Shown piece by piece: positions 19,176-31,139 of a stretch of 41,245 nucleotides of DNA; the stretch's first letter is position 1; each line of letters begins with the position of its first letter. Source of the DNA: a virus; IMG/VR virus record IMGVR_UViG_3300049791_000024, positions 1 through 41,245 of that record; one strand, 5' to 3'. The notes beneath the pieces were generated by a model that ran no database searches, had not been told where the DNA came from, and worked only from the letters and a program-made list of their open reading frames with translations. The translations under genes were made by a program, and so were the position numbers.

Positions 19176-19580
19176 ATGGCAACCGTCCTGCAATTCGTCG
19201 CGCGATCGCTGCGCCTGCTGCGCGTGATCGACCCGAACGAGCCGGTGCAGCCGGATGATTTCGAGGGTGCGCTGGTCGCGCTCAACGCGATGATGGCGCG
19301 GTTTGAAGCCGATGGGTTGGCGATGGGCTGGATGCCGATCGCAGCAGCATCCGATGAGCTTCCGGTGCCGCCTGAGTGCGAGGAGTGGTTGTGCGCTGGG
19401 TTGGCGTTGCGGGTTGCCCCGGAATACGGGAAAGCGCCGGACGCGATCACCGTCAAGATGTACGAGAGCGGGCTGGCGAAAACACAGCGTGACGTGCTGA
19501 CAGCGGCCCCATTGCAACTGCGCAGCAGCCTGCCGGTGAAATGTGCACGCTGGAATATCTACACGGATCAGGAATGCTGA
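19176..19580 (+). CDS. Head-tail adaptor, P22 gp4-like
   Basis: The 134-residue protein matches the P22 tail accessory factor gp4 family (ARSLRLLRVIDPNEPVQPDD; DFEGALVALNAMMARFEADG). In P22, gp4 attaches to the portal, has muramidase activity, and extends the channel for gp10. The order coat - gp4 - gp10 is that of P22. AAAGGAA precedes the start. The stop overlaps the gp10 start. Confidence 0.85.
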   Translation: MATVLQFVARSLRLLRVIDPNEPVQPDDFEGALVALNAMMARFEADGLAMGWMPIAAASDELPVPPECEEWLCAGLALRVAPEYGKAPDAITVKMYESGLAKTQRDVLTAAPLQLRSSLPVKCARWNIYTDQEC

Positions 19581-20815
19581 AAGACCTGCCCATCGTCGGT
19601 GGGTCGTACACCGACCCAACCCGTGCGTTCGACGTACAGGATTGTGTCAATTACATCCCGGAGAAAACCGAGTCCGATGGCGCGCGTGCGCCGTCGATCC
19701 TGCGAGGAGCGCCTGGATTCACCAACCTGCACATTTTCGGCACCGGCCCGCACCGTGGCGGGCGCGATGTGGAGGGCAAATTCTATTGTGTTTCCGGCGG
19801 CTCGCTGTATTCATGGGTCAACGGAGTGGGGACGAATCTCGGCGCAATCGCTGGGACTGGCCGGGTGTGCATGGCGCACAACCAGATCACATCAGGGCAC
19901 GAGTTGATCATCGTCAACGGCACCCAAGGTTACATCTGGAACGATGTCAAGAAAACGCTGACAAAGATCACCGATCCGGACTATCCGGGTTCGGCGGTTG
20001 TGGACTACCTCAATTCGTTTTTCGTGCAGGTGCGTCCGGACGGAACCGAGTGGTTTACCTCCGACCTTGCACGCGGGGCGCGTTACCTGAGTACGGACAC
20101 CTACGAGTCGGAATCAGATCCCGACCGGATCGTGTGCGTCATCGTGGATCACGGCGAAGTGATTGTGCTTGGCACGAACTCGACGGACATTTTCTGGAAT
20201 GCCGGCGCGGTCGATGCGACATTCGAGAGCAAGCAGATACCGATTGCACAGGGATGTGCTGGAAAGTACACGCCATGCCGGCTGGATAATTCGGTGTTCC
20301 TGCTTGGCAACGATGGCATTTTCTACCGCCTGAATGGCTATACGTTCGTGCGGATTTCCACCCATTGCATTGAACAGGCGATTGCGAACCTCAACTGGTC
20401 GCAGGCGTTCTCGTTCGTCTACACCGACCGCGGGCACAAGATTTACTACACCACGTTCCCCGATGGGCAGACGTGGGGTTATGACGTTGCGACTGGCCTG
20501 TGGCATCGCCGGGAGTCGTTCAACCTGCATCGCTGGCGGATCAGCACGCTGACATTCAGCGCTGGCAAGTGGCTGGCTGGCGACTACGAAAACGGCAATT
20601 TGTACGAGCTGGACTGGGAAGTGTTCGATGAGGCCGGCGATCCGTTGATTGCACGGCGCACGACGGCCTACCTGAGCAACCACCAGAACAAGTTGACGAT
20701 GAACCGGCTGGAACTGGTGATGGGAACCGGCGGCAACCCACAGGGGAACCTGTTGGACGAGTCGGGAATCCTGATTACCGAAGAAGATGTCTCCCTTCCT
20801 ATCTTCACGGAATGA
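19574..20815 (+). CDS. Packaged-DNA stabilisation protein, P22 gp10-like, N-terminal part
   Basis: The 413-residue protein contains the gp10 hallmark repeats of a beta-propeller-like protein (GSYTDPTRAFDVQDCVNYIP; LNSFFVQVRPDGTEWF; NDGIFYRLNGYTFVRISTHC). Gp10 forms the plug that keeps packaged DNA inside. The frame ends at TGA 20813-20815. The very next in-frame codons give a segment (PDVMLRYSDDGGNTWSN) that in this family is the C-terminal part of gp10. Together the two parts (about 486 residues) match P22 gp10 (about 472). So the gene is either split by one nonsense codon or two polypeptides now replace one. Confidence 0.88.
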   Translation: MLKDLPIVGGSYTDPTRAFDVQDCVNYIPEKTESDGARAPSILRGAPGFTNLHIFGTGPHRGGRDVEGKFYCVSGGSLYSWVNGVGTNLGAIAGTGRVCMAHNQITSGHELIIVNGTQGYIWNDVKKTLTKITDPDYPGSAVVDYLNSFFVQVRPDGTEWFTSDLARGARYLSTDTYESESDPDRIVCVIVDHGEVIVLGTNSTDIFWNAGAVDATFESKQIPIAQGCAGKYTPCRLDNSVFLLGNDGIFYRLNGYTFVRISTHCIEQAIANLNWSQAFSFVYTDRGHKIYYTTFPDGQTWGYDVATGLWHRRESFNLHRWRISTLTFSAGKWLAGDYENGNLYELDWEVFDEAGDPLIARRTTAYLSNHQNKLTMNRLELVMGTGGNPQGNLLDESGILITEEDVSLPIFTE

Positions 20816-20818
20816 CCG

Positions 20819-21034
20819 ATGCCAGACGTCATGCTGCGGTATTCGGATGATGGCGGAAACACATGGTCGAACACCAAGTACCGCGACATTGGCGATATTG
20901 GCCAGTACGGGCGCCGGGTTGCGTTCACGCGGATGGGCCAGTTCATCGCGCGGGTGATCGAGGTCAGTGTGTCCGATGCGGTCAAGCGGGACATCATTGC
21001 CGCGTCTGTCGATCTTGAGGGCGAGGCGCGGTGA
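20819..21034 (+). CDS. gp10-like C-terminal part, separated by an in-frame TGA
   Basis: A 71-residue frame in the same phase as the upstream gp10-like gene. It starts with ATG three codons after the TGA start base and has YSDDGGNTWSNTKYRDIGDI, the family C-terminus. The upstream CACGGAATG gives a weak ribosome site, so reinitiation is possible. Readthrough of TGA followed by C (a leaky context) would restore the full protein. Next gene starts at GTG within its stop. Confidence 0.7.
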   Translation: MPDVMLRYSDDGGNTWSNTKYRDIGDIGQYGRRVAFTRMGQFIARVIEVSVSDAVKRDIIAASVDLEGEAR

Positions 21035-21603
21035 AACTGTCCACCTCGCCGGCGTATTTCGAGGCGATTGCAAACCATCCGCGCGTGTTCAAGCGGGTTT
21101 CGCGCAAGGGCATCGACCGGATTGACCTTGCGCCGGTGTGGTCGCATTGCGTGGGCTTGGAGTTCGACGGTGGTGGGTGGTTGTGCCAACGCATCCATGC
21201 GGGATTGTGGGAGGTGCATACCTTGTTCCTGCCCGGCAATCACCATGTGCGCGACTGTGCAGTGGAAGCGTTGCGCTTCATGTTCACGGTGACGGACTGC
21301 AACGAGCTTTGCACCAAGGTTCCGTGCGATGTGTCACGGGCGAAGGAGCTGGCGCTCGACATGGGGTTTTCCGAGTCCTACCACCGCGACGATGGATGGC
21401 AGCGCGAGAGTGGGCCGGTAGCGGTCGATTACCTGCACTACAGGATCGAGTCATGGGCGCTGGGTTTGGCGGCAACGCCGGATCAAGCCTATGCAAACTT
21501 CCTTGCGTTGTGCGAAGCCGGCGGACAGCAGGATAAGGGCAACTACTTCTATTCGCGCTGGGCGGTACTGGCGCAGCCTGAGGAGCAATTCACATGCCAG
21601 TAG
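21031..21603 (+). CDS. P22 gp14-like protein (DUF2824)
   Basis: A 190-residue protein starting at GTG 21031. It has the acetyltransferase-like pattern (WEVHTLFLPGNHHVRDCAVE; NELCTKVPCDVSRAKELALD) of the DUF2824 family, to which P22 gp14 belongs. Gp14 is a minor head-assembly or injection protein. The position after gp10 and before gp7 fits P22 gene order. No enzymatic activity is implied. Confidence 0.75.
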   Translation: MKLSTSPAYFEAIANHPRVFKRVSRKGIDRIDLAPVWSHCVGLEFDGGGWLCQRIHAGLWEVHTLFLPGNHHVRDCAVEALRFMFTVTDCNELCTKVPCDVSRAKELALDMGFSESYHRDDGWQRESGPVAVDYLHYRIESWALGLAATPDQAYANFLALCEAGGQQDKGNYFYSRWAVLAQPEEQFTCQ

Positions 21604-22280
21604 CAGGCGCGGTCATCGCTGTAGGCGGGAGCCTGCTTGCGGCGCACATGCAATCCAGTGCCGCCAGTAGCGCAGCCGATGCACAGACGCAGGCATCGCA
21701 GGCGGCAATTGCCGAGCAGGCGCGCGAATACAACCAGTCGCGCTCGGATCAATTGCCGTGGTTGACCTCCGGCAAGGGCGCGCTCAATCGCCTGAACAAC
21801 CTCAATAACGGCAACTATTCCAGCTTCCACAAGTCGCCCGATTACCAGTTCGGATTGAATGAGCTGATCAAGAACGATGACCGTTCGGCTGCTGCACATG
21901 GACGCTTGTATTCCGGTGGTTACGGGCAGGACTTCGCCAAGGATATCATCGGCTACGCGAATCAGGGTTATGGCACCTACTACAACCGCATCGCGGCAAT
22001 GGCCGGCGTTGGACAGACTGCGGCGCAGAACCTTGGGAGTCTCGGCGCTAACTACGCCAATCAGGTCGGCCAGCAATACAACAACATCGGCGATGCGCGG
22101 GCGTCGGGTTATGCGACGCAGGCCAATATTAACACTGGCCTAATAAACGGAATCGGCACAGCCGCCGCCAACTACTTCAGCCAGAAGCCGCCGAGCTACA
22201 ACGCCTATACGGCACCGATCAACTACGACAGCACGAACAACGGCACCAATTCCAATATTCCGGCGGGGTGGTGGGGATGA
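21594..22280 (+). CDS. Ejection (DNA transfer) protein, P22 gp7-like
   Basis: The 228-residue protein opens with a hydrophobic Gly/Ala segment, has the family sequence SPDYQFGLNELIKNDDRSAA, and contains GRLYSGGYGQDFAKDIIGYA and NRIAAMAGVGQTAAQNLG. Length equals P22 gp7 (about 229). These pilot proteins leave the capsid first and help form the conduit through the cell envelope. GAGGAG precedes the ATG; the gene overlaps the preceding stop by 10 bases. Confidence 0.85.
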   Translation: MPVAGAVIAVGGSLLAAHMQSSAASSAADAQTQASQAAIAEQAREYNQSRSDQLPWLTSGKGALNRLNNLNNGNYSSFHKSPDYQFGLNELIKNDDRSAAAHGRLYSGGYGQDFAKDIIGYANQGYGTYYNRIAAMAGVGQTAAQNLGSLGANYANQVGQQYNNIGDARASGYATQANINTGLINGIGTAAANYFSQKPPSYNAYTAPINYDSTNNGTNSNIPAGWWG

Positions 22281-23998
22281 CTTACGACATCGCAGCGCAT
22301 ATACAGACCCCGAATATCGCGGGCAATTTCTTTGCCGCGCAGGATGATGCGATCAAGCGCCGGGCCGCATTGCAGCAGGAAGCCGGACAGAATCGCTTGC
22401 GTGAACTGTTGCCGCAGGTCATCAACGCGAACACGCCGGGCGCGCAGAACAATGCGCTGGCACAGGTGGCAGGCATCGACCCGAACGCGATGGGGCCATT
22501 GCAGCAGCACTTCGCGTCGCTCAATGAAGCGCAGAAGCAGGAAATGGCGCAGGCGAACGATCAGATCGTCCGCACGCTGGCCGGAATCCAGGCGATCCCC
22601 GACCCGCAGGCCAAGCATCAGGCATGGTTGCAGGCCAAGCAGCAGGCGACCGCCATGGGAGGGGTGACCGCCCAGTGGGTCTCCCAGCTTCCCGACGATC
22701 CCGAGTCCGGCATCCAGATGGCGTTCAGCCATGTCGCGCCGATCGATGCGCTGCTGAAGCAATCTGGCTATGGACAGAAGGACGACACGCGCTACCAGCA
22801 GGCGCTCGGCCCGGACGGGCAGATCATCGGCGGCTACGATCCGCGCACGAACACGATTTCTCCGATTGGGCGGGGCGGACAGCCGCGGCAGTCGCGTCCG
22901 TTGCTGAACCCGCAGAACATGCAGACCAGCATTCCGATCCCGCCGGACGAACAGGCGGCATTTCTCGCGGCTGCACGCGCCAACGACGCAGGCCAGCCGG
23001 CGAGCTTCGATGCCGTCAACGGACAGGCTGTGCCTTCGCAGAACGCGCCACAAGGCCCGCAGGCTCCTGCCGCACCGATGGCCGCGCCCATGCAGCCGCA
23101 AGCGCCTACCGGCACGCAGCCGAAGTATTACGGGCATGCGCCGCCTGCACCGCACGAAAATGCCGCACAGGCCAAGATTGACGCACTGCGCAAGCTCGGC
23201 GCATCCGATGCTGACATTCGCGCGTCCATGCTCGGCGGACAGCAGGGCGGCAACGTCACGGCTCCCGGCGATCCGACCCAGACAGGCGACGCATATCTGG
23301 CAACACTGCCGGTGGGCATGCGCGGTGTCGTCAAGGCCATCGCCAACGGCGATCAGGCACCGCCGTCGTCCTCCTCGCGTTCCCCACAGGCGCAGGCGCT
23401 CTTGCAGGCGGTCTACCAGTACGACCCCACGACCAACTCCACGAACCTTCCTGCACGCACGCAGACGCGCAAGGACTTCACCTCCGGCAAGTCGGCGCAG
23501 AACCTGCGCGCGCTGAATCAGGCCATCGGCCATTTGGGTCTGCTGGACAGCCAGATTGGCGGGACGGCTGGACACAATTTCCAGACCCTGAACAGGGTCG
23601 AAAATGCCTTCGCGCGCGAGACCGGCGATCCGGGCATCACGAACTACGAACAGACCGCATCGGCACTCGCTGGCGAACTCACGCAGGTCTTCCGTGGCAA
23701 CTCGGGCGCGGAGGCAGACCTGAACCGCAATTTGGCGCAACTGAGCGCGGCGCAATCGACCGAACAAAAGCAGGCGGCGATGGAGAACATCACCGGCCTG
23801 CTGAACTCGCGCATCGAGGAACTCGGCCAGCAGTATTCGCAGGGCATGGGCCGCACGGTCGATCCGTTCACGCTGCTCAATCCGCACGCTGCTGCCGTCA
23901 TGGCGAAGATTCACGGCGGCAAGCCATCGCAGAATGTCGCGAACGCGCCGGATCAGCAGCACCCGAATGTCGGCTGGACAGTGACGAGAATCAAATAA
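22277..23998 (+). CDS. Ejection protein, P22 gp20-like
   Basis: A 573-residue, Gln/Ala-rich protein. Helical segments (KRRAALQQEAGQNRLRELLP; RNLAQLSAAQSTEQKQAAME) flank a low-complexity Pro/Gln/Ala middle (about 240-290). It is longer than P22 gp20 (about 471). It is the second of three ejection genes and starts within the gp7-like stop; the next gene starts in its TAA (TAATG). A near-identical-length frame exists on the opposite strand, but only because of GC-rich codons. Confidence 0.75.
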   Translation: MTYDIAAHIQTPNIAGNFFAAQDDAIKRRAALQQEAGQNRLRELLPQVINANTPGAQNNALAQVAGIDPNAMGPLQQHFASLNEAQKQEMAQANDQIVRTLAGIQAIPDPQAKHQAWLQAKQQATAMGGVTAQWVSQLPDDPESGIQMAFSHVAPIDALLKQSGYGQKDDTRYQQALGPDGQIIGGYDPRTNTISPIGRGGQPRQSRPLLNPQNMQTSIPIPPDEQAAFLAAARANDAGQPASFDAVNGQAVPSQNAPQGPQAPAAPMAAPMQPQAPTGTQPKYYGHAPPAPHENAAQAKIDALRKLGASDADIRASMLGGQQGGNVTAPGDPTQTGDAYLATLPVGMRGVVKAIANGDQAPPSSSSRSPQAQALLQAVYQYDPTTNSTNLPARTQTRKDFTSGKSAQNLRALNQAIGHLGLLDSQIGGTAGHNFQTLNRVENAFARETGDPGITNYEQTASALAGELTQVFRGNSGAEADLNRNLAQLSAAQSTEQKQAAMENITGLLNSRIEELGQQYSQGMGRTVDPFTLLNPHAAAVMAKIHGGKPSQNVANAPDQQHPNVGWTVTRIK

Positions 23999-26223
23999 TG
24001 GCGACCTACCACGTCACCGCGCCCGATGGAACGACCTATGAAGTAAACGGGCCGGATGGTGCGTCACAGGATGAAGTGCTGGCACAAGTGCAGAGGGAGC
24101 ATCTCAGTTCTGCCAATGCTGACACCAATCGCGCGAGTGCAATGTCGCATATCGGAGCGAGCGGCGATCCGTCCGTTGACTGGCATGCTCCCATCGGGCA
24201 GCAAATAACGGACTTTAGCCGTGACCTCGGCCATCGCGTTGTGGATATTCCCATCGGCATAGGACAGGGGCTTGTGCATATCGGAAACGCGGTCACGCAG
24301 ACCTTCGCTCCGAGTACTATCGCCAATACTGCACAGCGCGCGACGAATGTAGCCGATGCAGCAGTAGCTCAGCGTGAACAGGAATACCAGAAGACATCGA
24401 ACACGCCGCTAGGGAATGTTGGCGGACTGATTGGGAATGTCATTCCGGTCGCCCGTGGCCTTGGTGCGATGCGTGAGGCCGGAATGCTTCCGTCTGTTGA
24501 ACGCCTCGGCATGAATCCGACGATTGGACAGCGTGCGGTCAATCTCGCGCAACGCACGAAGGCTGGTTTGGTCGAAGGTGGCGTTATTGGTGCGACTGCG
24601 CCTGTGACCAGCCAGAACGATAACTATCTTGCCAACAAGGCCAGCCAAGTCGTCGGCGGTGCATTGGTCGGTGGTGTCTTGCCTGCTGTCGTTTCAGGCG
24701 TCAAGACCGCAGTCGGTCCGATAGCGCGCCTGCTAACTCCGGAAGCGACTGCGAACGCGCGCATAGCTGCGCAGCTTGGCAATGATCCTGCCACGATTGC
24801 ACGGCTTCGCGCGGCAGGGAAGGGATTCCCCGGCTACCAGCCAACCGCCGTTGAGGCGAACCCATCACCGACAGGCGTGCAGATGGAGCGCACACTACGC
24901 AACCAGCCTGCTGCCGGCGTGGCGTTTGCGAATGCCGACAACGCCAACCATGCGGCACGGGTTGCAGTGGTCAATGACATTGCCGGAACTCCGCAACAAA
25001 TGGAATTGGCGAAGGCTGCACGCGCTGCTGCGACACAGCCCTATATTGAAGCCAACCTGAAACCGCAATCGGTCGCGTCGCGCTTCACGGCTGCAAGCGA
25101 CAAACTGCAAGCCTATCTCAGCGGTCGCACAAGCGCAGGCTCAGCGCCGATCATTCAACAAGCACAAAAGATCATGCAGGCCGCCAAGAACGGCAGCATG
25201 CAGGAAGATGATGCGATAGAGGAATTGAACCACCTGCACGCGAGCCTGCCGGAAACCCCGACTGGCCAGCCATCAGCTGCCATGAATGTGATGCAGTCCG
25301 CAAAGGATGCCATCAATCAAGGCATGGTTCCGACACAGCCGCTGAAGGACTTGCTCCACAAGACGCTCAATAGCGGTATCGCGTCAAATGCTGATGTAGC
25401 ATCCGGTATCAAGTCCATTCTCGCGCGTATCGATGCAACCGAAAACACGCGCGGCATGGTGAGCGCAGATGTGCTTGACGGCATGCGACAATCGTTGAAG
25501 TCGCACCTTCCAATCAATCCAGCAACAGGACAACCGAATGGACAGGCACTTGTTGGACTTGGGCCGGTCAAGACTGCAATTACGAACACGCTCGACGCCG
25601 CAGCACCTGGGTATCGCGATTATTTGGCAGCGTACGCAAAACACAGCATCCCGATCAATACGATGGAGTCAGCGTCTCGCCTGCTTGGGCGAGTTGATAG
25701 CGGTGGGCTTAATAGTGGCGGCGGTGAAGTTCTTACCCTCCCTGCTATAAACCAAGCACTAGCAAAAGACACGCTCGCACAATATCCGATGGCTCCGGAA
25801 GCACTGGCGAAACTTGAAGCCGTTCGTGCAAGCCTGCAAGCCCGCAGTGCGTTGAATGACAAGATCACAGCATCCGGCCCAGGCACTGCGGCAGAAGTCA
25901 CAGTCCAAGCCAGCAAGAGCGCAAAATCAGGCATCCGTTACGGACTCGGTTCAATTGTCGGCAGCCTTATTTCAGGCGCGCTCGGACTTCCCGGCGGCTA
26001 TGAAGCGGGCCTCGCTTTGGGTGCTGCTGGCACAGGCGCGCTCGACTTTCTCAACCAGCGCGTTGCCGGTCGCGTGGTCGGCAAGATGGCGAACGCACAA
26101 GAAGCTGCGAAAGCTCTGGAAGCCTATAACGCAGCGCGCAACCGCTTGGGCGCATTGGCTCGCTACCTGCCGCAAGGCGGCACCTACGCAACCAATCGTC
26201 TGCCACAACTCACGAAACCATAA
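23998..26223 (+). CDS. Ejection protein, P22 gp16-like (internal virion protein)
   Basis: A 741-residue protein. Residues 2-33 (ATYHVTAPDGTTYEVNGPDG) form the short APDG...YEV domain common at the start of phage internal proteins. The middle has long helices and several hydrophobic Gly/Ala/Val-rich segments (for example GGALVGGVLPAVVSGVK; SIVGSLISGALGLPGG near 655-675) that could enter membranes. P22 gp16 is about 609 residues and is injected into the host envelope. Identity rests mainly on order and composition. Confidence 0.7.
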   Translation: MATYHVTAPDGTTYEVNGPDGASQDEVLAQVQREHLSSANADTNRASAMSHIGASGDPSVDWHAPIGQQITDFSRDLGHRVVDIPIGIGQGLVHIGNAVTQTFAPSTIANTAQRATNVADAAVAQREQEYQKTSNTPLGNVGGLIGNVIPVARGLGAMREAGMLPSVERLGMNPTIGQRAVNLAQRTKAGLVEGGVIGATAPVTSQNDNYLANKASQVVGGALVGGVLPAVVSGVKTAVGPIARLLTPEATANARIAAQLGNDPATIARLRAAGKGFPGYQPTAVEANPSPTGVQMERTLRNQPAAGVAFANADNANHAARVAVVNDIAGTPQQMELAKAARAAATQPYIEANLKPQSVASRFTAASDKLQAYLSGRTSAGSAPIIQQAQKIMQAAKNGSMQEDDAIEELNHLHASLPETPTGQPSAAMNVMQSAKDAINQGMVPTQPLKDLLHKTLNSGIASNADVASGIKSILARIDATENTRGMVSADVLDGMRQSLKSHLPINPATGQPNGQALVGLGPVKTAITNTLDAAAPGYRDYLAAYAKHSIPINTMESASRLLGRVDSGGLNSGGGEVLTLPAINQALAKDTLAQYPMAPEALAKLEAVRASLQARSALNDKITASGPGTAAEVTVQASKSAKSGIRYGLGSIVGSLISGALGLPGGYEAGLALGAAGTGALDFLNQRVAGRVVGKMANAQEAAKALEAYNAARNRLGALARYLPQGGTYATNRLPQLTKP

Positions 26224-26232
26224 GGAACACCG

Positions 26233-27054
26233 ATGTCATTTCGCGTGTTGAACAGCAACCCCCAATTCCTGCAATTGTCGGGTGCGGTACTGACGGTGCT
26301 GGGCGGTGGTTCGCTGTCGTTCTACGTCAACCGGACGACGACGCCGCAGAACACCTACAGCGACAAGGCGCTCACGATCCCGAACACGAACCCGGTGGTA
26401 TTGGATGCGGAAGGCCGCTCGCTGACCGATATCTGGGGCGATGGCACCTATACGGTGGTGCTGAAAGACGCGCTCGGGGCGATCATCTGGACGCGCGATG
26501 ACGTGCAGGCCAATTCGGAGATTCCCGATCAAGCCGGGAATGCCGGATTTTACCTGACAACCGATGGCGCTACGCCTTCATGGGGCGCTATCAGTCAGGT
26601 GCCGAGCGTGACCGGCAACGACAATACGACACTCATCACCGATGGTGTCACGGTTTCATGGGGAGTGCCATCGCTTGCAGCAGGAGCCGGGGCAACCATC
26701 GCCGACTTCGTGACGATGAACATCCGCGAGAAAAGCCAGAGCGTCACCGCGACAGCTACAACCAACTTCGATTACGCGCTTGGCGGGTTCGTTGACCTTG
26801 CCCAAGCCGTCGCAATCGGGTCCATCACCTTTACCAATCTTCCTGTGGCCGGACAGGTGGCAATCTTCACCATTCGCCGCACCAAGGATGCCACCGCCAC
26901 GGCACGCACGATTGCATGGCCGGCTGCGATCCTGTGGCCTGGCAATGTCGATCCGACGCTGACCCAGACGACCGGAGGCCGCGACCTGTTCACCATCGTT
27001 ACCAACGATGCCGGAGTGACGTGGGACGGCTCCTACACCGTGGCAATGGCATGA
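26233..27054 (+). CDS. Tail fibre or spike, N-terminal type
   Basis: A 273-residue protein with an N-terminal domain of the type that anchors spikes to short tails (GSLSFYVNRTTTPQNTYSDK; NPVVLDAEGRSLTDIWGDGT; TYTVVLKDALGAIIWTRD). The C-terminal part is a beta-rich domain with many Thr/Ala. AAGGAA precedes the ATG. It is the first of five adsorption genes. Confidence 0.75.
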   Translation: MSFRVLNSNPQFLQLSGAVLTVLGGGSLSFYVNRTTTPQNTYSDKALTIPNTNPVVLDAEGRSLTDIWGDGTYTVVLKDALGAIIWTRDDVQANSEIPDQAGNAGFYLTTDGATPSWGAISQVPSVTGNDNTTLITDGVTVSWGVPSLAAGAGATIADFVTMNIREKSQSVTATATTNFDYALGGFVDLAQAVAIGSITFTNLPVAGQVAIFTIRRTKDATATARTIAWPAAILWPGNVDPTLTQTTGGRDLFTIVTNDAGVTWDGSYTVAMA

Positions 27055-27467
27055 TCCTCCAGCATCTTGTGCCGCTCAATTCGCGCGGGGGTTCGGGTGG
27101 TGCGTTCACCGTCACGATCAAGCCTGCCAGCGTCTATTACTACAACCCGACTGGTGGGACATCGGGAACCACACGCTCCGTCACGGCAACGGCAACAGGC
27201 GGGACGGCTCCCTATACCTATGCATGGACTGGCGCAGCGTCGGCGACGTTCACGATCAGCTCCGCTGCGGCAGCCACAACGACATTCAGCGGCGATGGCG
27301 TCGGAAGTTTCAGCGACGTGACGGAAATCAAGCGTTGCACCGTGACCGATAACGTCGCGGCTGTCGCCTTTGCGACGGTATCGGTGGAAATGCAGTTTGG
27401 TGGGTCGTCCGGTGGTGGTGGGCCGATCCAGAAAAAGCCGATTGTGCCGCCAAGGCTACCGCGATGA
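27051..27467 (+). CDS. Ig-like domain protein of the tail
   Basis: A 138-residue protein with one PKD/Ig-like domain (SVTATATGGTAPYTYAWTGA, TFSGDGVGSFSDVTEIKRC). Such domains occur on phage tails and capsids and may help binding to surfaces. The tail end (GGPIQKKPIVPPRLPR) looks flexible. ATG overlaps the preceding stop. Confidence 0.65.
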   Translation: MILQHLVPLNSRGGSGGAFTVTIKPASVYYYNPTGGTSGTTRSVTATATGGTAPYTYAWTGAASATFTISSAAAATTTFSGDGVGSFSDVTEIKRCTVTDNVAAVAFATVSVEMQFGGSSGGGGPIQKKPIVPPRLPR

Positions 27468-27841
27468 CCGCAGGCGTTGGCATCCCATCGCCTGCTGCGA
27501 TTTACGTCAATCCGGATGGAACGCCGACTGTTGAACTCTATAGCGCGCTGCGCAAGCTGGCGCTGAACCAGAACAGCGACAATGCCACGTTGGCAGAAGT
27601 GGTTGATACGGTGAATACGTTGCTGGAAACGGCTTCATCCGGCAACTCGAACGAACAGAACTACGCACTGCTGGTCAATTTCCTCGCGCATCCGCTGCTG
27701 AACTTCATCACGCTCGCCATTGATCCGGTCGCGGCTGATTTACCGGACGGGCAATACGCGGTTTTCAAGAACACCGGCAGCGGTGCGGTTTCATTGTGGG
27801 CGAACGACGGCGGAATCCTGAAATCCGTTTTACTTACCTAA
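27464..27841 (+). CDS. Small tail-region protein
   Basis: A 125-residue protein with a helical middle (ELYSALRKLALNQNSDNATL ... VNTLLETASS) and a beta-rich end (PDGQYAVFKNTGSGAVSLWA). It begins in the preceding stop (ATGA). It could be a spike connector or a chaperone; function not known. It is one candidate for the missing tail-needle function. Confidence 0.55.
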   Translation: MTAGVGIPSPAAIYVNPDGTPTVELYSALRKLALNQNSDNATLAEVVDTVNTLLETASSGNSNEQNYALLVNFLAHPLLNFITLAIDPVAADLPDGQYAVFKNTGSGAVSLWANDGGILKSVLLT

Positions 27842-27850
27842 GGAACGATC

Positions 27851-29035
27851 ATGTCTGAACTCATTGCCGCCGGCACCAGCTATGCCGCATCCGCCGACTT
27901 CACTGTTCTTGCTGGTGATCCGACTTCGCTGTTCATCAAGCCCGCATCCGGTAATGCAGTCGCTCCTGGCGGCGTCCAGTATTGGGTGCAGCACAAGACA
28001 TCGGATGGCCTTTACAATACGGTGCTGGTGCTGGATGCCAGCAACATCACCGAGAAGGGCACACTATGGATGCCCGGTACGTTCCGCGTGCTTCGCCAGC
28101 CGGCGTCCGCATCAACAGGCATGGATCTTGAAACATCCTCCGGTGGTAGCGGCGTCACCGCAACGCAGGGCAACGCAGGAACCGCTGCGCAGGCATGGTT
28201 TACCAAGGTTGTCGACAGTGCTGGCGTCAATGTCGCGACGGTGAAGGCGGCAAATACCGCACCAGCCGCAACCGATACATCCATTGTCGTTGCAATGAGC
28301 CAGAACAGCCCCACCGTTCTTGCGCAGGCTGCTGCAACTGCCGGGCAGCTCGGCGAGCTGGTGCTGGCGGCATGCACGACGGCAGCGCCAACGGATGTCA
28401 CCGGCAATTCCTACCCCCTGTCGCTGACCACTGGCGGTGGCTTGCGCGTTGACCTTGCCTCGGCTGTGGGAACCGCGTTGGCTGTGAGTACCGGCGCTGC
28501 CGCGAATGCACTGCGCGTCCAGCAGGCGAGTACCGCGATTGCGCAGCAGGGACACGGCCCAACGGGTTCGGCGGTTCCCTCTGGTGCGACGCAAATCGGC
28601 GGTGTTGCCGCGACATCAAACCCTGCCAATGCCAGCAACGGCAACCTGACTGGCGCGATGGTGGACAAGGCCGGTCGACTGGTCACGACCACCGCGCATA
28701 TCCGTGAAAACACCAAGTACGCCTACCTTGCACTCGCGGCCAGTGGTGAGACAACGCTGATCGCACAGACGGCAAGTGAGTTCCACGATATCGCGATGCT
28801 GATCATCAGCACGGCGGGTGCAGCAGCCGCAACGATCACCCTGCGCGATGGTACAAGCGGCACGACGGTCGGTGTCTTCAACTACCCGGATGCGGCGCTC
28901 GCGCCTTCCGGTGGCCCGTTGGTGCTTTGCTTCAATCCACCCCTCCCGGCTGCTGCCGCCAATACCAACTGGACGGTGCAGAACTCCGTGACCACCGCGA
29001 CGAATATCACCGCTGTCTATATCAAGAACCTGTAA
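27851..29035 (+). CDS. Tail or adsorption structural protein
   Basis: A 394-residue, Ala/Thr/Ser-rich protein with low-complexity collagen-free beta-type repeats (TAATDTSIVVAMSQ; TAGQLGELVLAACTTA). A regular domain at both ends is likely (HKTSDGLYNTVLVLDASNIT; IAMLIISTAGAAAATITLRD). AAGGA precedes the ATG. It is probably part of the adsorption apparatus. Confidence 0.6.
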   Translation: MSELIAAGTSYAASADFTVLAGDPTSLFIKPASGNAVAPGGVQYWVQHKTSDGLYNTVLVLDASNITEKGTLWMPGTFRVLRQPASASTGMDLETSSGGSGVTATQGNAGTAAQAWFTKVVDSAGVNVATVKAANTAPAATDTSIVVAMSQNSPTVLAQAAATAGQLGELVLAACTTAAPTDVTGNSYPLSLTTGGGLRVDLASAVGTALAVSTGAAANALRVQQASTAIAQQGHGPTGSAVPSGATQIGGVAATSNPANASNGNLTGAMVDKAGRLVTTTAHIRENTKYAYLALAASGETTLIAQTASEFHDIAMLIISTAGAAAATITLRDGTSGTTVGVFNYPDAALAPSGGPLVLCFNPPLPAAAANTNWTVQNSVTTATNITAVYIKNL

Positions 29036-29051
29036 GCCAAAGGGAAAAGAC

Positions 29052-31139
29052 ATGCCCAAGGTATCCCAAGTCGATGCAGCAACGACGCTGGCGCTGCGCA
29101 ACAAGGTGGGATTGCCTGCCCCATTGGCGTCCTATTTCCTGCGTGGCAATGTCAGCGGGACAGCGTTCGAGAGTGCGCCGGCAGTCTATGACCTCGGCAA
29201 CTTCCTGCAATACGGAACCGGCGCGGTTTCACAAAGCGCAGTCGGCAAGATCGCCGAATGGCGTTCGATCACCGACTACAGTCCTGACAGCACGCCGATC
29301 ACCACCGCCAGTTCGCCGACCCGCATCCGGCAGGCGATCCAGTTGGCGTTTGACTCCGGTGCAGGCGATCCGATCTACGTGCTGATCCCGCCCGGCGTGT
29401 GGGAGGTCGATCTCCCGCCGAACGTGCCGTCGAATGTGCAGGTGTTGCTGTTCGGCACGATCTACAACGCCGGTCATGCCGCTGACGCGACGTGCTGCGC
29501 GCTGACGATGGGCACGCACGCGCCGGCCTTCAACATCAACGCGACGCTGTACACGGCCCCAAGTGTCATCGCCGGTGCGAGCCAGTTCGTGCTCGACGCG
29601 GGCGCGAACCGCACCAACGGCATCGCGGCCATGCCGGTCGGCACGCCGCTGTACATCCGCAGCAAGACCTATGTGCTGCAACCTCCTGCCGGCGGTGGTG
29701 CTGACATCACCATCCCGACCTACATCGGCATGGGCATGTGCACCGGCAGCGACGCTGGCACCGGCACGATCACCTTCGAGCCGCCGGTCGATGAAGCGAT
29801 CGCAAACGTGATGGTCGGGCCAGCCGACCAGCCAGCCATTGGCCTGAAGTCTGCCTACCGCTCCTCCATCGTCGGCCCTGGAGGGCTGAAATCGGACACC
29901 TACTACGCGACTGCCTACGGCGGCCAGCTTCAATGTACGGTGGACATCGGCTTCATCGAGAGCTACGGCGGCCTGTTCGGCAACCTGTTCTGCCACGGCT
30001 CGTACAAGGTGCGCAACGTCTGGGCGAAGAAGAAGATTCACGACACCTCGTTCGGCTCGAACAATTCCTCGTTCGAGGTCATCAGCGCCTATTGTGATAA
30101 CAGTGTCGACACGTCCACCGGGCAGATTCTCGTCTCCGGGCAGCATGGCCGCCGCAACACCGTGAAGTACGGTTCCGTGAGCGCGCCGAACTACAACGGC
30201 AACAGCGGCTTCATCCTGTACGCAACAGGCTGTCACAACTGCACGCTTGACGTTGGCACGATTGACGCGCCACTTGCCGCCGGTAAAGTCGTCCTGATGT
30301 CCAATGCGGTCGAAACGGTCGCGGGCGATGAGGTGCAGCACTACACGACCGACTGCTCGTTCGCGTGCGATACGCTGAACGTCAGTGCCGGCGCTGCCGC
30401 TCGCTACGTTTATCTCGAAAACCTGAACAGCGGTGGCGCGCGCAACAAGGTACTGCGCGGACATTACAGCGGTGTCGTCAGCACGTCGGCGATTGAGGTC
30501 TATGGCACCGACACGTACATCGGCCAGAATGTGCGCTGCGACTCCGGCGCACTGCTCGTCAAGAACGGCGCAACCCTGAGCTGTGACGGCGCGTACTTCG
30601 CTGGCGGCGTGACGTTCGACTCGGCGACCAGTCTTGCCAACCAGAACATCCGCAACATCCGCAGCACGGCGCAGGCCGTCCTGCGCGCAGCCTATTGTTC
30701 GGGGCAGAACGTCGCCACCTCGGCGGCAGTTGCGGCGATCACGGGCGGCACGATGGTCATTGCTGCTGGCGGCCTTGTCGTCGGGGATACGGTTGAGGTC
30801 GAATGGAGCGGAAAGCTCGCCGGCACCAACGATGTCAAGACGGTGACGCTGGCTGACAATACCGGAACGCTGGCGACGATTGCCTACATCGCGGCAGATG
30901 TCAACGGCATCCGCGGCAGGGCACAGTTCCGCGTTGCATCCGACGCGATCTACGGCGGCGATGTCATCATGTGGGATGGCAGCACGCCGGCATTGACCCG
31001 CGTCCGCCGCACTGCCATGACCCTCAACGCCAGCGGTCGCACCTTCACCTTGCAGGCCGGCACTGCCAACGCGGGCGATTCTGTAACCATCGACCAGTTC
31101 ACGATGCGCGTCGTGCGGCCATCGGCGAACCTGCCGTGA
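29052..31139 (+). CDS. Tailspike with pectate-lyase-like beta-helix
   Basis: A 695-residue protein, the size of P22 tailspike (about 667). An N-terminal segment (about 1-90) is followed by TRIRQAIQLAFDSGAGDPIY and VLIPPGVWEVDLPPN, the entry strands of right-handed beta-helix enzymes. Long runs of short Gly/Asn-rich strands follow (CHNCTLDVGTIDAPL). The C-terminal 150 residues are a separate beta-domain. Such spikes bind and often cleave surface polysaccharide. AAAGGG precedes the ATG. The substrate cannot be read from sequence. Confidence 0.8.
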   Translation: MPKVSQVDAATTLALRNKVGLPAPLASYFLRGNVSGTAFESAPAVYDLGNFLQYGTGAVSQSAVGKIAEWRSITDYSPDSTPITTASSPTRIRQAIQLAFDSGAGDPIYVLIPPGVWEVDLPPNVPSNVQVLLFGTIYNAGHAADATCCALTMGTHAPAFNINATLYTAPSVIAGASQFVLDAGANRTNGIAAMPVGTPLYIRSKTYVLQPPAGGGADITIPTYIGMGMCTGSDAGTGTITFEPPVDEAIANVMVGPADQPAIGLKSAYRSSIVGPGGLKSDTYYATAYGGQLQCTVDIGFIESYGGLFGNLFCHGSYKVRNVWAKKKIHDTSFGSNNSSFEVISAYCDNSVDTSTGQILVSGQHGRRNTVKYGSVSAPNYNGNSGFILYATGCHNCTLDVGTIDAPLAAGKVVLMSNAVETVAGDEVQHYTTDCSFACDTLNVSAGAAARYVYLENLNSGGARNKVLRGHYSGVVSTSAIEVYGTDTYIGQNVRCDSGALLVKNGATLSCDGAYFAGGVTFDSATSLANQNIRNIRSTAQAVLRAAYCSGQNVATSAAVAAITGGTMVIAAGGLVVGDTVEVEWSGKLAGTNDVKTVTLADNTGTLATIAYIAADVNGIRGRAQFRVASDAIYGGDVIMWDGSTPALTRVRRTAMTLNASGRTFTLQAGTANAGDSVTIDQFTMRVVRPSANLP

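Follow-up and report, generated by a model that had tools for sequence, protein, structure and literature searches.

In the nozzle proteins T7 gp12 and SU10 gp17, as in the P22-type plug, a seven-bladed propeller is combined with a platform drawn from both chain ends, and the platform binds the adaptor (PMC6702177, PMC9509320). The platform domain of SU10, which contacts the adaptor, is made of both chain ends, blade 1 being where the chain passes into and out of the propeller (PMC9509320), and in T7 the first 45 residues supply three platform strands, a circular permutation being suspected by the authors (PMC6702177). Only length variation outside the central propeller was noted by Hardies 2023 (PMC10386132). 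The plug of P22 and Sf6 is one chain of 471-472 aa (P22 gp10, 472 aa), whereas the plug gene analyzed here is in two parts and has a longer linker.

The window, i.e., the whole stretch of 41,245 nucleotides that was analyzed, is a virus record in which Pfam and PHROG profile searches revealed a P22-like structural module. The gene order is terminase, P22 portal, scaffold, P22 coat, adaptor Ad3, plug, one unknown gene and DNA ejection, which fits the context of a gp10-type plug. The features of the locus are as follows.

Terminase: PF04466 match
P22 portal: PF16510 match
P22 coat: PF11651 match
19176..19580, + strand: upstream adaptor gene, gp4-like (phrog_637, head-tail adaptor Ad3)
19574..20815, + strand: plug large part, 413 aa, a gp10/nozzle-family beta-propeller with N-terminal strands (phrog_578, PF11134, model)
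20732..20812, + strand: hypervariable linker, residues 387-413, GNPQGNLLDESGILITEEDVSLPIFTE, predicted disordered at 406-413
20813-20815, + strand: stop TGA of the large part, next base C
20819..21034, + strand: plug small part, a chain of 71 aa beginning at ATG 20819; it is the C-terminal beta domain, part of the platform, and has the Asp-box motif SDDGGNTW
21031..21603, + strand: next gene, 190 aa, starting at a GTG that overlaps the TGA ending the small part (GTGA)

The stop of the adaptor gene likewise overlaps the start of the large part, so that tight gene overlaps are found on both sides of the plug; an alternative in-frame ATG at 19541, upstream of ATG 19574, would make the large part 424 aa. 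After the TGA follow CCG and ATG 20819, and 72 codons are open in the unchanged frame up to TGA 21032-21034. The first-pass annotation had described a gp10-like gene interrupted by one in-frame TGA followed by C, and sequence and translation bear this out, the frame running open without a shift to 21031. The 190-aa gene gave no Pfam or PHROG match and occupies the position where P22 carries the needle gene and gene 14. Behind the ejection gene (22268-31139) lie four large frames (576, 741, 394 and 695 aa) without a PHROG match, and their place suggests ejection or tail proteins.

The large part (residues 3-387) matched PHROG 578, the head closure Hc3 family of P22 gp10, over profile residues 4-398 of 486 (E 2e-105), while its score against PF11134 (24.6 bits) was just below the cut-off of 25. 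The frame past the TGA matched residues 405-472 of the same profile (E 2.5e-12), confirming that the conserved C-terminus, the platform domain, lies beyond the stop. Since PHROG 578 is matched on both sides of the TGA, both halves belong to a protein of one family, although in the window the two domains do not share one uninterrupted frame. The codon-usage score of the C part was +0.30 in its frame and -0.32 and -0.50 in the other two, and by these measures the C part is real coding sequence. It encodes a five-strand, 65-residue beta domain corresponding to the last part of P22 gp10, with the TGA 5 codons ahead of the domain.

For modelling only, the window protein was read through the TGA and folded with AlphaFold, giving a pLDDT of 89 and a pTM of 0.88. 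The sole stretch with pLDDT <50 comprised residues 406-413, directly ahead of the stop. Compared with the entire chain of P22 gp10 (8eap), the read-through model (1-482) aligned with Z 40.3 and 2.1 A over 439 residues, which together with the profile match upholds the earlier identification as a gp10-like plug. The combined length had been equated with that of P22 gp10 (472 aa); the totals are indeed similar, but the agreement is partly fortuitous, the window carrying about 20 extra linker residues relative to its nearest fused relatives.

These extra residues surround the break. Between Gly386 and the C domain there are 31 positions in the window versus 11 in the commonest form, and the TGA lies inside the extra stretch. 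In fused relatives this interval is mostly 5-12 residues, sometimes 40-46 with LLxESG..TED motifs, and in a few cases 140-150 in-frame. The window linker, NLLDESGILITEEDVSLPIFTE-stop-PMPDVMLRYSDD, is of the LLxESG..TED kind (compare NLLTESGLDLLTEDDIALLVSLAATTGADPQVMLRWSDD in L119), and such linkers run in-frame through fused relatives, e.g., L119 and L174. Elsewhere among the well-formed split loci, the large chain extends roughly 110-570 residues past the joint, whereas in the window only 27 residues follow Gly386; where scanned, the extra stretch contained an Ig-like He_PIG domain, often together with BNR or WD40-like repeats. In L038/L039 and L086, other genes separate the two plug parts. 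The linkers, inserts and gene boundaries of the relatives all fall at the joint, and the window stop therefore sits where relatives place breaks or inserts. The window break is the minimal form, with no inserted domain; an extra domain is usual in the two-gene form and not strictly defining. The genes between the plug parts were tail-fibre genes (phrog_4176, phrog_4950) in L038 (2298-3763) and an unknown 260-aa gene in L086 (5084-5866).

To describe the place of the C domain across the family, 224 loci fetched by profile searches were sorted: 150 had a C-terminal fusion, 45 a separate downstream gene (28 once N domains were clustered at 90%) and 17 a fusion in front of the propeller, and the remainder comprised 7 truncated loci, 3 without a detected C domain and 2 without an N match. 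Two of the three loci lacking the domain are one contig ending there, and the third (L144) is only 24% identical. After clustering, and with complete N domains and flanks required, 102 distinct loci were retained, and exactly one C domain was present in 101 of them (72 C-terminal, 25 separate, including the window, and 4 N-terminal), indicating that the domain is required, whether or not it is joined to the propeller chain. Its conserved residues are the same whether fused or free, and free copies adjoin the plug gene in most loci. The split form occurs in metagenomic viruses (IMG/VR) and in prophages of Stenotrophomonas koreensis, Stenotrophomonas sp. BIGb0135, [Pseudomonas] hibiscicola and Lysobacter gilvus. 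A two-part plug had been expected to be new for this family, an expectation contradicted by its frequency in uncultured relatives and in these Stenotrophomonas and Lysobacter prophages; the split plug is, on the gene arrangements compared, widespread in uncultured relatives, and the window is special in its minimal break. Among deposited phages a split plug was not found, and wherever both domains were found they were annotated as one gene; no published description of a split gp10 was found in the literature searched, in which subscription journals were thinly covered.

The reversed order, with the C domain ahead of the propeller, was observed in L030, L031, L033, L035, L037, L040-L046 and L023, and this N-terminal fusion occurs in one lineage. 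Judged from domain order, the reversed plug is a natural circular permutation of a gp10-type protein. In an AlphaFold model of the permuted L046 the pLDDT was about 30 in the N-terminal copy of the C domain, too poor to place its docking. In L021 (4626-6410), the C domain ends a 594-residue GTA_TIM protein directly behind a plug gene without the domain, and phrog_19101 (unknown function) matched this protein over its whole length.

A maximum-likelihood tree of 122 N domains was built by a quick method; its branches are long, and the exact position it gives the window is provisional. The window falls close to L057 (53%, fused) and at the base of a starred clade of 48 rows in which all three forms are mixed. 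Given the starred branches, the distribution of the labels implies at least 12 changes for the split form, and L149 is split inside an otherwise fused clade; splits and fusions thus changed repeatedly.

The DNA arrangement, the domain identities, the break position and the split in many relatives being matters of observation, the plug, a P22 gp10-type nozzle expected to close the DNA exit channel of this short-tailed phage as a hexamer beneath the adaptor, is probably a two-chain protein made by an ordinary stop and restart. Ribosomes would terminate the 413-residue propeller chain at TGA 20813; 3 nt further on, at ATG 20819, either these or neighbouring ribosomes would restart and produce the 71-residue chain. 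This free chain would dock in the platform, presumably as a two-chain assembly with 6:6 stoichiometry, and may contact the adaptor. The free end of the large chain, predicted at the outer face, could carry adhesin domains, and the joint would be an exposed disordered linker, which in relatives appears to accommodate insertions of in-frame domains, adhesin-like domains or tail-fibre genes, or to act as a simple gene boundary.

The junction has the layout of the two-gene form. In most split loci the parts overlap or abut (ATGA, GTGA, TGAcATG) and a start codon lies at the stop or follows it closely, and at the window junction, TGACCGATG, the C domain has its own start just before it, abutting the large gene as in L003, L013 and L015. 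ATG 20819 lies 3 codons ahead of the first conserved Val, which is the commonest start of separate C genes (e.g., L003, L013, L015, L017, L020 and L028), and reinitiation there, named by the first-pass annotation as an alternative, gains support from this canonical place. The Shine-Dalgarno match of ATG 20819 is weak (-3.9 kcal/mol), no better than at internal ATGs and uninformative either way, and a restart would therefore depend on coupling to the upstream gene. Against the two-chain reading, every other well-formed split relative has an extra stretch of at least about 110 residues before the stop that the window lacks, and the relatives nearest to the window (53%) have a fused plug.

Programmed or leaky UGA-C readthrough, yielding full-length plug at a level of a few percent, either as the sole product or together with that of restart, had been the leading idea and now appears improbable. 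The UGA-C context is leaky in enterobacteria, the frame is kept across the stop with C as the next base, and the pre-stop linker resembles linkers that run through in fused relatives. However, a frame is kept by chance one time in three, and the two plug genes of 33 of the 37 distinct split loci differ in frame, which makes joining of the parts by readthrough impossible there. Those 37 rows include L156 and L168, both out of frame, which look like broken frames with an incomplete N-domain match (31 of 35 without them); neither passed the completeness filter applied to the set of 122, and the 102 loci do not contain them. The ATG 3 nt past the stop, at the canonical place, is likewise against readthrough, as is the absence of unusual RNA structure downstream of the TGA (z -0.84), although UGA-C readthrough does not always need such structure. 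In addition, with full-length chain at a few percent, a hexameric ring could hardly be filled, and the domain is present in practically every relative. TGA-C also ends other window genes, e.g., the terminase, indicating an ordinary stop. Recoding of TGA was considered separately and rejected, several window genes terminating at TGA.

Also unlikely is an error in the sequence, or a nonsense mutation private to one genome in a population whose other members have the fused gene. The window is a single metagenomic record, and its nearest relatives, as noted, are fused; but a random stop would have to strike the short dispensable linker and none of about 450 other codons, and it would also need a chance in-frame ATG, which was found within the last ten linker codons in only 1 of 81 distinct fused relatives. 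The terminase, portal, scaffold and coat genes of the window gave family matches without a break, and the split prophages come from isolate genomes, which speaks against assembly error as a general cause. The first-pass annotation had proposed that close relatives with a sense codon and no split would refute a split plug; fused relatives do exist, but in protein, DNA-pattern and blastn searches none exceeded 53% identity, which is too distant to judge this base. It is very unlikely that the plug consists of the large chain alone, with another role for the small gene: the GTA_TIM protein of L021 illustrates that the C domain can associate with other proteins, but the domain occurs once per genome with the same conserved residues fused or free, and the free copies mostly remain beside the plug gene.

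Beyond the proposed stop-and-restart plug of the window, it seems somewhat more plausible than otherwise that the platform part of the podovirus plug is a mobile module whose function does not depend on covalent linkage (C-fused, N-fused, free or on GTA_TIM), and that the joint is an insertion hot spot for adhesin domains and tail-fibre genes, the window representing the barest step, a stop and a restart with nothing inserted. Because the platform is formed from both chain ends meeting at blade 1, the C domain could be attached at either end or left free, as in the relatives. If the break is used, the platform domain would be a natural split-protein module, a natural circular permutation would be demonstrated in a virion ring protein, and there would be an explanation of how the plug can take on adhesin-like domains while its contact with the adaptor is left undisturbed; in such phages a virion gene of 70 residues may then be overlooked in annotation.

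Compared with known systems, the window plug shares its fold over both parts with the P22 gp10/Sf6 gp8 tail hub (8eap, 8u10, 9jg6, 7sg7; Z 37-40, 2.1-2.4 A, about 435-439 residues), whose gene likewise lies between the adaptor and ejection-protein genes. The nearest solved sequences for both profiles are the needle head protein of cyanophage Pam1 (7eeq; N profile E 1e-32, C profile E 3e-12) and the stabilization protein of Pan3 (9vyg; E 9e-37 and E 3e-8, respectively), in which, unlike in the window, the C domain (residues 368-425 in Pam1 and 372-434 in Pan3) is on the same chain as the propeller. T7 gp12 and SU10 gp17 also differ from the window in being single chains with nozzle domains inserted inside the propeller and a platform without a break. 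The split plug genes of IMG/VR relatives and of the Stenotrophomonas and Lysobacter prophages (L136, L138-L140) share the break point of the window, with a separate C gene starting at or near the same place, and they differ in that the large chain carries the extra He_PIG domain, often with BNR/WD40-like repeats, and in that the frame is mostly different.
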